Below are positions 15,614 to 18,936 of a stretch of DNA of 64,000 nt, piece by piece. The notes beneath the pieces were generated by a model, which did not search any database, was not told the origin of the DNA, and saw only the letters and a list, made by a program, of their open reading frames with translations. The stretch comes from Sedimentitalea nanhaiensis DSM 24252 (GTDB taxonomy: Bacteria > Pseudomonadota > Alphaproteobacteria > Rhodobacterales > Rhodobacteraceae): assembly GCF_000473225.1 (NCBI RefSeq), contig NZ_KI421509.1, positions 2,701,741-2,765,740 of the forward strand. The letters are read 5' to 3'. Each line of letters starts with the position of its first letter. Positions within the stretch are counted from its first letter, which is position 1. Made by a program: the position numbers and the translations under genes.

Positions 15614-15737
15614 TTCTTTTCCTCACGAGATGTCTTGCCTTGTGAAGAAAAGGTAGATGAGCGAAGGACGCCGAAATAGACGCCGCGATTTCAATAGTTC
15701 AGCGCCCCCATGTGCGGGGAACTAGCAACTGTATTGT

Positions 15738-16697
15738 TCATTCTGGATGAGGCGTCCATTTTTGCCCTGATTTGACGAGGGCATTTGCGATGGTCACAAG
15801 CTTTCGGGCGACGGCGACAATGACGACCTTGTGTGGTTTACCTGCGGCACGCAGACGATCCGCGAAGGTTTTCAGGACCTGATTGTGGTGGCTGGCAACG
15901 AGGGCCGCCTGGAATATTACGTGCCTGAGCAGTCGTCGCCCTCCGCCGATAGCGCGCTTACCACGCATCGCTCTGCTGTCGTGTGCAATCGGTGCGAGGC
16001 CCGCGAGCGCGGCGGCCTGCTCGCCTGTGATCTGACCAAGTTCTGGCATCTCGGCGATCAACATCGAGCTGGCAACCGGGCCGACCCCGGGGACGGACCG
16101 CAGGATACCGGCAGTTGCGGCCAGTTCATCGTCTGCAGCGATGGTCTGTTCAATCCGCGCCTCCAGATCCGCGATTTGGCGGTCGAGAAGCGTGCGCCGC
16201 TGGTCGTCCATACTCGCGAACATCTCGGCAGATCCCAGTTTCCCATGCGCCTTTATCTGTGCCAGAAGGCGTTTTCTGCTCTCAACGAGCTGCCCGCGCT
16301 TTGACGTCAAGGCTCTGAGAACCCGCAGCTTTTCATGTGGCAGACTGCGCCCGGCACCGGGCCGGAACATCATGAACCGGGCGATGAGTTCCGCATCTAT
16401 CCGATCCGTTTTGGCCCGTGTGCCCCGGCTTGCGGCGAAGGCCTTGATTTGCGCTGGCGGCAATTGTCGCGTCGCCACGCTGGCGGCCTCCAGCGCCGCC
16501 CATAAACGCCATTCCTGGCCTCCGGTTGCCTCGAAGCAGACCAGGCCGTTGACGTCCCGAGCCAACCGCACCAGCTGTTCGTGCCCCTCATCCGCGTTCG
16601 GCAATCTCAACCACTTGCCATCCGGCAGGCAATGAATGTCCAGCCAATCCCGCGAGACATCTATGCCGATGATCCGGTCGTGTGCTACCGTTTCCAT
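15738..16697 (-). CDS. IS110-family transposase, left copy (altered active-site neighbour)
   Basis: A 319-residue DEDD transposase. The RuvC-like part has [24 protein letters not shown] and [13 protein letters not shown]. The C-terminal part has [20 protein letters not shown] and then [17 protein letters not shown]. The family's catalytic serine is Ser241 in this numbering. Residue 242 is Arg here but Gly in the other copy and in the usual family motif (SG..RG), so this copy may be weak or inactive. Start ATG follows AGGAAGAGAGC. Confidence 0.93.
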   Translation of the reverse strand: METVAHDRIIGIDVSRDWLDIHCLPDGKWLRLPNADEGHEQLVRLARDVNGLVCFEATGGQEWRLWAALEAASVATRQLPPAQIKAFAASRGTRAKTDRIDAELIARFMMFRPGAGRSLPHEKLRVLRALTSKRGQLVESRKRLLAQIKAHGKLGSAEMFASMDDQRRTLLDRQIADLEARIEQTIAADDELAATAGILRSVPGVGPVASSMLIAEMPELGQITGEQAAALAGLAPIAHDSRAMRGKRAIGGGRRLLRHVIFQAALVASHHNQVLKTFADRLRAAGKPHKVVIVAVARKLVTIANALVKSGQKWTPHPE

Positions 16698-16698
16698 G

Positions 16699-16857
16699 CT
16701 CTCTTCCTTCTGCTTCGTGGTCCTGATCGGCCACATTCAACTGTTCGAGACGATGAAGAGAGACGGTGCTGGCTCGCTAGCAAACGTGGTCAGGCCACAA
16801 GGCTCAGACGCCATACACCGTCCCACCACCGGCCTCGGCCAAGGTCGGTGGTGGGAG
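16699..16857 (-). ncRNA. Candidate bridge RNA of the left IS110 copy
   Basis: The exact mirror image of the leader of the right copy, between the element's left end and the transposase start. It has the same stem-loop (CCCACCACCG / CGGTGGTGGG) and the same two internal-loop domains. IS110-group elements are known to encode their bridge RNA in this position. Structure was drawn by eye only. Confidence 0.6.
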
Positions 16858-16890
16858 GAGATTAGCAAAGCGCAGATACAGAAGGGTCAG

Positions 16891-17718
16891 GACCCATTGA
16901 TTTCCGCCTGGCTGCGTGATTCACGGTCTGAAAACGAGCGGTGAACATGTCTGATCTTTTCTGGCTGAGCGACGCGCAAATGGCACGTCTCAAACCATAC
17001 TTCCCGAAGCCTCACGGCAAACCGCGCGTTGGCGACCGGCGCGTGTCGAGTGGGATTATCTTCATCGATCGCAATGGCTTAAGGTGGCGCGATGCGCCCA
17101 AGGAATACGGCCCGCACAAGACGCTCTACAATCGCTGGAATCGGTGGCGCGACAAGGGCGTCTTCGCCCGGATGATGGCTGGTTTGGCCGCCGAGCACGG
17201 CGAGACGAAGGCCGTCACGATCGACGCAACCTATCTCAAGTGCCACAGAACCGCGAGCAGCACGGGCGTGAAAAAGGGGCGCGTGGACGCCTGATCGGGC
17301 GCAAAAAGAGCGGCATGAACACCAAACCGCACGCCCTCTGCGACAGCCAGGGGCGCCCGATCAACCTGTTCGTCACCGCCGGACATGTCAGGGACTACAT
17401 CGGTGCGCGAGCATTGCTGGGCAGCCTGCCGAACGTGGATCGGTTGCTCGGAGATCGAGGTTACGATGCGGATTGGTTCCGAGAAGTGTTGAAAGACAAA
17501 GGCATACGCGCCTGCATCCCCGGTCGGGATCAGCGGAAGAAACCGGTGAAATACGACAAGCGCCGCTACAAGCGCCAAAACCGGATCGAGATCATGTTCG
17601 GCAGCCACAAGGATTGGCGGCGTGTGGCAACACGATATGATAGATGCCCGAAGGTCTTCCTCTCCGCCATCGCTCTCGCAGCCATCGTCATGTTCTGGCT
17701 ATGAAACAAGAACGAGTC
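16891..17718 (+). mobile_element. IS5-family insertion sequence (828 bases)
   Basis: The segment left after removing both IS110 copies. Its ends read GACCCATTGATTTCC on the left and, on the opposite strand, GACTCGTTCTTGTTTC on the right, so the terminal repeat is GACYCRTT. CTAG would flank it on both sides. The length and the two overlapping frames fit the IS427 group of the IS5 family. Confidence 0.8.
16947..17704 (+). CDS. IS5-family (IS427-type) transposase made by -1 frameshift
   Basis: Two frames together encode a DDE transposase of about 252 residues. The first (16947-17294) has the N-terminal domain (LSDAQMARLKPYFP, then GLRWRDAPKEYGPHKTLYNRW) and the first catalytic Asp in TIDATYLK. 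The second, ending at 17704, has LLGDRGYDADWF with the second Asp and RIEIMFGSHKDWRRVATRYD with the Glu. The slippery heptamer A-AAG-GGG at 17273-17279 lies in the overlap and gives the expected KKGARGRLIGR junction. All catalytic residues remain. Confidence 0.9.
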
Positions 17719-17751
17719 CTGACCCTTCTGTATCTGCGCTTTGCTAATCTC

Positions 17752-17910
17752 CTCCCACCACCGACCTTGGCCGAGGCCGGTGGTGGGACGGTGTATGGCG
17801 TCTGAGCCTTGTGGCCTGACCACGTTTGCTAGCGAGCCAGCACCGTCTCTCTTCATCGTCTCGAACAGTTGAATGTGGCCGATCAGGACCACGAAGCAGA
17901 AGGAAGAGAG
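17752..17910 (+). ncRNA. Candidate bridge RNA of the right IS110 copy
   Basis: The IS110 leader folds by eye into three parts: a ten-base hairpin CCCACCACCG / CGGTGGTGGG (17754-17763, 17778-17787); a first loop closed by GACGGTG / CACCGTC (17787-17793, 17841-17847, sharing one base with the hairpin); and a second loop closed by CTCTCTTC / GAAGAGAG (17847-17854, 17903-17910). Loop 1 contains CTAG (17829-17832). Loop 2 contains ACAGTTG (17865-17871), identical to the bases before the CT core at the element's right end. The last stem also covers the transposase ribosome site. This order matches known IS110-group bridge RNAs (5' hairpin, target loop, donor loop). Confidence 0.62.
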
Positions 17911-17911
17911 C

Positions 17912-18871
17912 ATGGAAACGGTAGCACACGACCGGATCATCGGCATAGATGTCTCGCGGGATTGGCTGGACATTCATTGCCTGCCGGATGGCAAGTGGTT
18001 GAGATTGCCGAACGCGGATGAGGGGCACGAACAGCTGGTGCGGTTGGCTCGGGACGTCAACGGCCTGGTCTGCTTCGAGGCAACCGGAGGCCAGGAATGG
18101 CGTTTATGGGCGGCGCTGGAGGCCGCCAGCGTGGCGACGCGACAATTGCCGCCAGCGCAAATCAAGGCCTTCGCCGCAAGCCGGGGCACACGGGCCAAAA
18201 CGGATCGGATAGATGCGGAACTCATCGCCCGGTTCATGATGTTCCGGCCCGGTGCCGGGCGCAGTCTGCCACATGAAAAGCTGCGGGTTCTCAGAGCCTT
18301 GACGTCAAAGCGCGGGCAGCTCGTTGAGAGCAGAAAACGCCTTCTGGCACAGATAAAGGCGCATGGGAAACTGGGATCTGCCGAGATGTTCGCGAGTATG
18401 GACGACCAGCGGCGCACGCTTCTCGACCGCCAAATCGCGGATCTGGAGGCGCGGATTGAACAGACCATCGCTGCAGACGATGAACTGGCCGCAACTGCCG
18501 GTATCCTGCGGTCCGTCCCCGGGGTCGGCCCGGTTGCCAGCTCGATGTTGATCGCCGAGATGCCAGAACTTGGTCAGATCACAGGCGAGCAGGCCGCCGC
18601 GCTCGCGGGCCTCGCACCGATTGCACACGACAGCGGAGCGATGCGTGGTAAGCGCGCTATCGGCGGAGGGCGACGACTGCTCAGGCACGTAATATTCCAG
18701 GCGGCCCTCGTTGCCAGCCACCACAATCAGGTCCTGAAAACCTTCGCGGATCGTCTGCGTGCCGCAGGTAAACCACACAAGGTCGTCATTGTCGCCGTCG
18801 CCCGAAAGCTTGTGACCATCGCAAATGCCCTCGTCAAATCAGGGCAAAAATGGACGCCTCATCCAGAATGA
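17912..18871 (+). CDS. IS110-family transposase, right copy (intact motif)
   Basis: A 319-residue transposase identical to the left copy except Gly242 instead of Arg. The DEDD residues ([21 protein letters not shown]) and the catalytic serine in [15 protein letters not shown] are all present, so this copy looks functional. The ATG at 17912 is chosen for its GGAAGAG ribosome site; a further upstream in-frame start at 17873 would lie in the presumed bridge RNA. Confidence 0.94.
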
Positions 18872-18936
18872 ACAATACAGTTGCTAGAGGTGCCAAACTA
18901 CGTGTCGTTCTACATCAACCAAGCGATTGTTTTCGC

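Follow-up and report, generated by a model that had tools for sequence, protein, structure and literature searches.

Introduction

Insertion sequences (ISs) of the IS110 and IS1111 types that target other mobile elements are already known, among them IS4321, IS5075 and ISEc21. IS4321 and IS5075 target Tn21-type repeats and ISEc21 targets IS3 transposase genes (PMC11187229), both terminal repeats of Tn6317 are disrupted by IS4321R (PMC5034289), and bridge-RNA guides as well as natural redirection between relatives have been described (PMC11187229, PMC11208160). Here, we analyse a locus of the alphaproteobacterium Sedimentitalea nanhaiensis DSM 24252 in which two IS110 copies flank one IS5-family element in mirror orientation, at 15722–18887 of a 64,000 nt stretch of contig NZ_KI421509.1 (this whole stretch being called the window). 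We propose, with a probability of roughly 90 %, that this IS110 encodes a bridge RNA which directs its insertion to the point where an IS5/IS427-type end meets the target duplication of the IS5 element, a reading made from sequence.

Like the window IS110, IS4321 has a recombinase of the DEDD type and enters another element at one or both of its terminal repeats, but it splits the repeat, reportedly leaving the transposon deficient in further mobilization (PMC5034289), whereas the window IS110 inserts after the last IS5 base. IS1111 elements usually have their non-coding region downstream of the transposase gene (tnp) and carry subterminal repeats of 11–13 bp (PMC11187229); these features are absent from the window element, which has its non-coding region upstream of tnp and only ATACAG/CTGTAT subterminally, and which by its sequence belongs to the IS110 group of the IS110 family. 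ISEc21 is likewise of the IS110 group, with an upstream non-coding guide RNA and an IS as its target, but it enters IS3-family elements within a conserved codon region of their transposase (PMC11187229), whereas the window IS110 targets the end of its host IS together with the duplication. The closest likeness of the predicted RNA is to that of IS621, in the order of 5′ stem-loop, target loop and donor loop, the CT core, the encoding of the RNA in the left end, and the placing of the left guide on the bottom strand and the right guide on the top strand (PMC11208160). The IS110 elements of that paper have targets such as REP (repetitive extragenic palindromic) elements, whereas the left guide of the window element is matched to IS5 ends and its right guide to CTAG.

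The IS5 element between the two copies fits the IS427 group of Paracoccus, whose members measure 832–865 bp, in some cases have two overlapping frames and mostly make 2 bp duplications, TA in the case of ISPaes2 (PMC3281130, PMC3832669): it is 842 bp long with two overlapping frames and a TA duplication, and its group name is given by resemblance to a table in PMC3281130. The consulted sections of these two papers describe no IS110 at the ends of the Paracoccus IS427-group elements. A search of the open-access literature by titles and abstract beginnings returned no description of an IS110 at IS5 or IS481 ends, with subscription papers and ISfinder notes outside its scope, and we make no claim of priority. 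The target of terminal repeat plus duplication, the sparing insertion point and the left-guide difference between IS5 and IS481 hosts were also not encountered in the open-access literature searched.

Results

The locus is built as follows (coordinates of the window):

15722–15725, no strand: outer flank CTAG of the left copy (AG is the IS110 core on this strand, TA the IS5 duplication, C the host)
15726–16884, minus strand: left IS110 copy, 1159 bp (right end at 15726; core CT of the left end at 16883–16884)
15738–16697, minus strand: IS110 transposase of the left copy, a predicted RNA-guided recombinase (319 amino acids from the conserved start; 332 from an upstream ATG)
16698–16884, minus strand: predicted region of the bridge RNA in the left copy (mirrored at 17725–17911; the right copy was folded, the arms being identical here)
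16884–17725, plus strand: IS5-family (IS427-type) element, 842 bp (terminal repeat GGGTCAGGAC(C/T)C; terminal bases common to the IS110 core CT)
16941–17294, plus strand: first frame of the IS5 transposase
17084–17704, plus strand: second, overlapping frame of the IS5 transposase
17725–18883, plus strand: right IS110 copy, 1159 bp (core CT at 17725–17726; right end ...ACAGTTG at 18883)
17912–18871, plus strand: IS110 transposase of the right copy (319 amino acids from the conserved start)
18884–18887, no strand: outer flank CTAG of the right copy (CT is the core, TA the IS5 duplication, G the host)

The mirror arms of 1172 bases around an IS5 element, at 15722–16893 and 17716–18887, that had been noticed from the sequence alone are confirmed: they are reverse complements with a single difference, at position 15974, and are not a product of chance. 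Lengthening the comparison to 1177 bases adds two further differences. Each arm consists of CTAG (4 bases), the IS110 (1159) and nine bases of the IS5 terminal repeat, GGTCAGGAC; because GGTCAGGAC is itself an inverted repeat, these IS5 bases resemble part of an arm. CTAG stands outside both ends of the unit. Each arm carries one IS110-family transposase gene with an open frame of 332 codons, the left product differing from the right by one residue, and tnp stops 12 bp short of the IS110 right end. The right copy, which was scanned, scores 199.6 bits against the NF033542 cut-off of 140 and exceeds the cut-offs of PF01548 and PF02371 (DEDD recombinase with a C-terminal Transposase_20 domain). 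The two overlapping frames of the IS5 transposase give 100.2 bits (first) and 140.5 bits (second) with NF033580, the second alone exceeding the cut-off of 110.

The ends of the two elements were fixed with the help of IS5 copies that carry no IS110. Ten IS5 relatives on plasmids were examined, among 40 of 672 matching records, and eight are bare at both ends (L121–L126, L129, L130); of the others, L127 shows no recognizable right end, and the left end of L128 is occupied by an IS110. All eight bare elements read YTA followed by GGGTCAGG on the left (L129 has GGTTCAGG in place of GGGTCAGG) and CTGA(C/G)CC followed by TAR on the right, with a TA target duplication in 8/8; two other IS5 relatives in the genome of S. 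nanhaiensis (L012, L013) read GGGTCAGGACCC at the left end. Because the bare relatives end in this way, the window IS5 ends at 16884 and 17725, and not at 16891 and 17718. The left IS110 junction is accordingly CTGACC-CT-TCTGTATC and the rejoined site CTGACC-CT-AG, in which the C of the core is the last base of IS5 and the T is the first base of the TA duplication.

A Sulfitobacter locus (L043) provides an independent view of the same boundary. Here, a relative of the IS110 is inserted in a formaldehyde dehydrogenase frame, and precise rejoining at the corrected core CT restores the conserved codons THKLSLDEIN; the frame departs from the gene beyond this stretch, and only those codons are counted. 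In this one case, therefore, the IS110 is inserted without a target duplication. The matching stretch of the window's own gene reads THKLSLDQIN; this gene, at 20729–21898 on the minus strand, we take by its resemblance to encode a glutathione-dependent formaldehyde dehydrogenase, the counterpart of the one split in Sulfitobacter.

The sequence-only reading had placed the IS110 boundary at GTC-CT-GACCC, seven bases away. We rejected that boundary: the bare IS5 relatives contain CTGACCC, the predicted donor guide CAGAAG fits CT-TCTG, and a join of that type loses two conserved codons in L043. Bare IS5 elements with ends other than 16891 and 17718 had been named in advance as evidence against the reading, and such elements do exist; they shift the boundary and leave the proposed targeting standing. 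A target that is itself an inverted repeat can, therefore, cause IS110 ends to be misread, and the ends of listed IS110 elements are in places described as inaccurate (PMC11187229).

Eight IS110 matches of at least 500 bp are present in the genome, all on one contig, and all eight have CTAG outside the right end. The left flank is readable in five, and each of the five adjoins an IS5 end; the remaining three comprise one that shows GTCCTGACC and then runs of N, and two that run into an assembly gap. Besides the window pair (pair A) there is a second complete mirror pair (pair B), around an IS5 that is 100 % identical to that of pair A, and probably a third (pair C), with a gap between its arms. 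A doubled IS110 tail with one N between the two parts (L007:2657-2760) lies beside pair B and is most likely an assembly artefact. Copy D is a single IS110 at the left end of an IS5; the right end of that IS5 carries no IS110 and has the sequence CTGATC-CT-AG. This IS5 (L011, G000:C4:3331989-3332799) is a mosaic, its first part being like the window IS5 and its right part different, which suggests recombination between IS5 copies. At the one position where the arms of pair A differ, the left copy shares A with copy D, and the right copy shares G with the left copy of pair B and with copy E; the different alleles fit two insertions rather than one duplicated arm.

Related loci were collected from plasmids, species genomes (the best 79 of 96 candidates) and family genomes, where 18 of 394 genomes had a match at E <= 1e-60. 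A quick protein tree of 60 rows showed two sister clades, of 36 rows (support 82) and 19 rows (support 98), with a distant outgroup; the window clade has the left end CT-TCTGTAT. Own-genome copies were dropped before the flanks were counted, as were L078 and L080 (below 60 nt) and L109 and L116 (identical to L106), and the queries for IS5 ends were the window IS5 and the eight bare IS5 elements only, with no self-matches. In the window clade, an IS5 end, left or right, was found at 24/39 distinct left flanks, with 0–3 nt between match and core in 23 of the 24 and 22 nt in the other (L115). The right flanks, which serve as an internal control, had IS5 ends in 0/32, and read CTAG in 22, CTAA in 8, TTAG in 1 and CTGG in 1, so that CTAR accounts for 30/32.

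Where both ends of an IS5 are in view, three elements are doubly occupied (A, B and L035) and seven singly (D, L036, L040, L050, L053, L060 and L128), in a set that was gathered mostly via IS110 and so gives no general frequency of occupancy, and in which the far IS5 ends were located by sequence pattern, so that further two-ended cases may be missed. L035 shows the mirror architecture on a complete Pseudosulfitobacter plasmid. Its two IS110 copies are 77.6 % identical, and its outer flanks are CTAG and CTAA, which beyond the core share only the TA of the IS5 duplication.

The fold computed for the 187 nt upstream of tnp comprises a 5′ stem-loop followed by a target and then a donor loop (z = −2.1 for the window alone). 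A consensus fold of 34 sequences has 44 pairs, 19 of them with compensatory change; six of the 44 are pairs of the left end with the donor guide, and these are read, from sequence, as guide-to-donor matching. Rfam gave no match at E <= 1 for window positions 15500–19100. The predicted features in the right copy are:

17753–17788, plus strand: 5′ stem-loop of the predicted bridge RNA
17800–17809, plus strand: putative left target guide GUCUGAGCCU (CUGAGC-CU fits CTGA(C/G)C-CT; one mismatch at −2 with the window IS5)
17828–17834, plus strand: putative right target guide with CUAG (would pair with CT-AG of the target)
17865–17871, plus strand: putative left donor guide ACAGUUG (fits the right end ACAGTTG)
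17897–17902, plus strand: putative right donor guide CAGAAG (the corrected left end, CT-TCTG, is its reverse complement)

By analogy with IS621, GUCUGAGCCU would be the left target guide, and the right guide would be the segment that holds CUAG. An earlier candidate for the left guide, CCTGACC, forms the loop of a hairpin and also occurs in the sister clade, which has another target; it was replaced by GUCUGAGCCU. In counts that include near-identical elements, the right donor guide is CAGAAG in 35/38 of the window clade and CATAAG in 17/20 of the sister clade, the guide of the other clade being found in 0/58, and the left donor guide ACAGTTG is present in 36/38 and 18/20, respectively. The match of the donor guides to the corrected IS110 ends confirms those ends.

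The putative left target guide agrees with its own target at 4.96 of 7 positions across both clades (n=55 distinct) versus 3.25 after shuffling, with 0 of 20,000 shuffles as high, and at 5.11 versus 4.83 within the window clade (n=37, P=0.0007), in shuffles that do not correct for relatedness. The Oceaniovalibus element L107 (2797–3970) has the left guide UUUGGACCU and the target CCATGGAC-CT with CTGG on the right side, and its right guide, read by eye, contains ACCAGC; from its sequence we read it as a natural retargeting to a matching non-IS5 target, CCATGGAC-CT-GG. Element L038 also shows a matched change (guide CAGAGC, target CAGACC), with the mismatch at −2 remaining. On the right side, CTAA flanks 4/8 elements with a TTAG guide versus 2/16 with a CTAG guide, a covariation that is suggestive only.

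The sister clade has the left end CT-TATG and is often found at the ends of IS481-family elements. IS481 transposase matches lie within 110 nt at 8/19 distinct left flanks (L072 and L106 supplied the queries) and at 157–175 nt in two more, versus 0/17 right flanks; IS5 matches within 110 nt occur in 2/19 left flanks, at 39 and 84 nt, neither of them at the core. The host transposase of L106, the one host scored on the curated model, passes the NCBI IS481 cut-off (238.8 bits versus 224). IS481 elements prefer NCTAGN sites. The far end of the IS481 host reads CTAG followed by GTGTTTAG in L106, L109 and L116, which have the same left flank, and in L106 it is recorded as CTAG followed by GTGTTTAGTCCC; in L072, ATCTTTG stands before TGTTTAG, with no CTAG preceding. 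The left guide of this clade is mostly GCU(A/G/U)AACA(C/U)CU, the targets before the core are mostly ACT(A/G)AACA(C/T) or ATCA(A/G)ACA(C/T), and the right flanks (n=17) read CTAG in 15 and CTAA in 2. Guides and flanks together indicate that CTAG is read by the right guide in both clades, whilst the left guides differ in step with the host.

Two side observations concern individual sites. The right end of a sister-clade copy in Gluconobacter (L073) is bordered immediately by an IS5 end (CTAG followed by GCTCAGGACTC), so that one CTAG is common to two elements. In the window, a perfect 16 bp inverted repeat, TTTTGGGGCCGGACGG, lies beside the insertion at 15002–15017 and 15331–15346, its halves 313 bp apart.

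Discussion

Our data are consistent with a model in which a circular IS110 would join its right end ACAGTTG to its left end TCTGTATC at CT, and in which the bridge RNA would be made and act as in IS621. The left target guide would read CTGA(C/G)C, the final bases of the terminal repeat of IS5, and the core CT, and the right target guide would read CT-AG; recombinase and bridge RNA would locate a YTAR site in which the IS5 end is still attached to its TA duplication, and recombination would take place at CT, without duplication. Because the IS5 terminal repeat is inverted, there is a target at each IS5 end, facing outward, and the second end can be filled too. Two independent, successive insertions would give the mirror pair with the IS110 left ends toward IS5, an orientation that the guide would impose. 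The insertion point lies just outside the last IS5 base, leaving both IS5 ends whole and the IS110 copies outside them. Of this model, the sequences themselves show the boundaries, the target, the conserved fold, the matches of the guides and IS5 elements occupied at one end or at both.

Several proposals of the sequence-only reading are supported by this analysis. That the IS110 recognizes the IS5 terminal repeat with its target duplication is supported by the copies in the same genome, by the flanks of relatives and by the guide matches; that it would choose its target through a bridge RNA is probable, given the conserved fold and those same matches; and that the inverted repeat lets it enter twice is supported by the mirror pairs A, B and L035. 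The further suggestion that the IS110s hitch-hike on IS5 fails on anatomy, as the copies lie outside intact IS5 ends, and so outside the stretch that the IS5 transposase would be expected to move. The arrangement points to the opposite: IS5 could probably still move, and would then leave the IS110s behind.

Some observations weigh against guided insertion at IS5 ends. In the window clade, 15/39 distinct left flanks were not recognized as IS5 ends, and one of these (L112) touches an IS481-like stretch. Copies in unrelated targets had been named in advance as damaging to the idea, and they were encountered only among relatives, at these 15 flanks. Ten of them (L038, L039, L043, L045, L049, L054, L058, L075, L091 and L112) keep GA(C/G)C directly before the core, and five (L046, L100, L107, L120 and L144) do not; its retention fits a guide-driven choice rather than mere co-travel with IS5. 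The left flanks of L045 and L058 look alike, and upstream in L045 lies an IS66-like transposase fragment whose 139.8 bits fall short of the cut-off of 180, which makes an IS66-like element a possible third type of host for these two.

The genome of S. nanhaiensis itself adds to the contrary evidence. The assembly is a draft in which three IS110 places contain Ns, and pair C is for this reason no more than probable. Six further CTGASCCTAR sites stand uninterrupted in the genome, none of them an IS5 end, and something beyond this ten-base core may matter for targeting. Among the 394 family genomes, the window site was not encountered in an empty state. Nor does the guide fit perfectly. Apart from the uncorrected relatedness, the shuffle of guides against targets is not significant in the sister clade alone (n=18, 4.67 versus 4.56, P=0.28), and the window left guide has G at −2 opposite the C of its IS5, a mismatch seen in 15/37 clade members. 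The guide/target pairs at this position (n=37) are G/C 15, G/G 12, C/C 8, A/A 1 and C/G 1; a C guide stands at a C target in 8/9, and a G guide accepts both. As IS621 off-targets typically have one or two mismatches (PMC11208160), the window mismatch would be tolerable, though the fit is imperfect.

Other histories could produce a similar picture. The 3.2 kb IS110–IS5–IS110 unit might have moved as one composite element, as the 100 % identity of the IS5 in pairs A and B, the near identity of the IS110 copies and the CTAG outside both sides of pair A would allow. However, the IS5 terminal repeats lie inside this unit and not at its ends, single-end states exist in the same genome and elsewhere, the arms of pair A carry different alleles, and the outer flanks of the Pseudosulfitobacter pair share only TA beyond the core, all of which makes a composite element improbable. 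We consider it more improbable still that no special targeting took place, and that exchange between IS5 ends, by recombination or gene conversion, turned a single insertion into the mirror pair, or that the structure is an assembly artefact. The draft state of the genome, the gaps at several IS110 copies and the doubled tail beside pair B would suit such an account, but the window pair is assembled without a gap, with arms that differ at one base, and a complete plasmid has the same architecture with copies only 77.6 % identical; moreover, the contrast between left and right flanks (24/39 versus 0/32) and the GA(C/G)C kept in 10/15 non-IS5 insertions speak for a chosen target.

Least credible of all, with hardly any weight left to it, is the original combination of a GTC-CT-AG target, an IS110 left end CT-GACCC and hitch-hiking IS110s. 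Rejoining at its CT also yields CTAG, but the CTGACCC that it assigns to IS110 occurs in bare IS5, the donor guide CAGAAG fits CT-TCTG, two conserved codons of L043 are dropped, and the IS110s stand outside the IS5 ends. Insertion guided by a bridge RNA to the junction of IS5 end and duplication is, therefore, the reading that we retain.

Taken more widely, and with a confidence only a little better than even, the data suggest an alphaproteobacterial IS110 lineage specialized as RNA-guided lodgers of other ISs. Its right guide would be fixed on CTAG/YTAR, the scar of CTAG-preferring ISs, and its left guide would name the host family, such that a change in this guide would have carried the lineage between IS5 and IS481, whilst docking outside the host would spare that host. 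If this is true, fresh docking sites arise wherever a host IS jumps. The locus offers a naturally occurring, replicated example of a bridge RNA readable against a known class of target, with left guide and host (IS5 or IS481) changing together from one sister clade to the other. It suggests a source of ever-renewed sites for such elements: the junction of another element and its own target scar.

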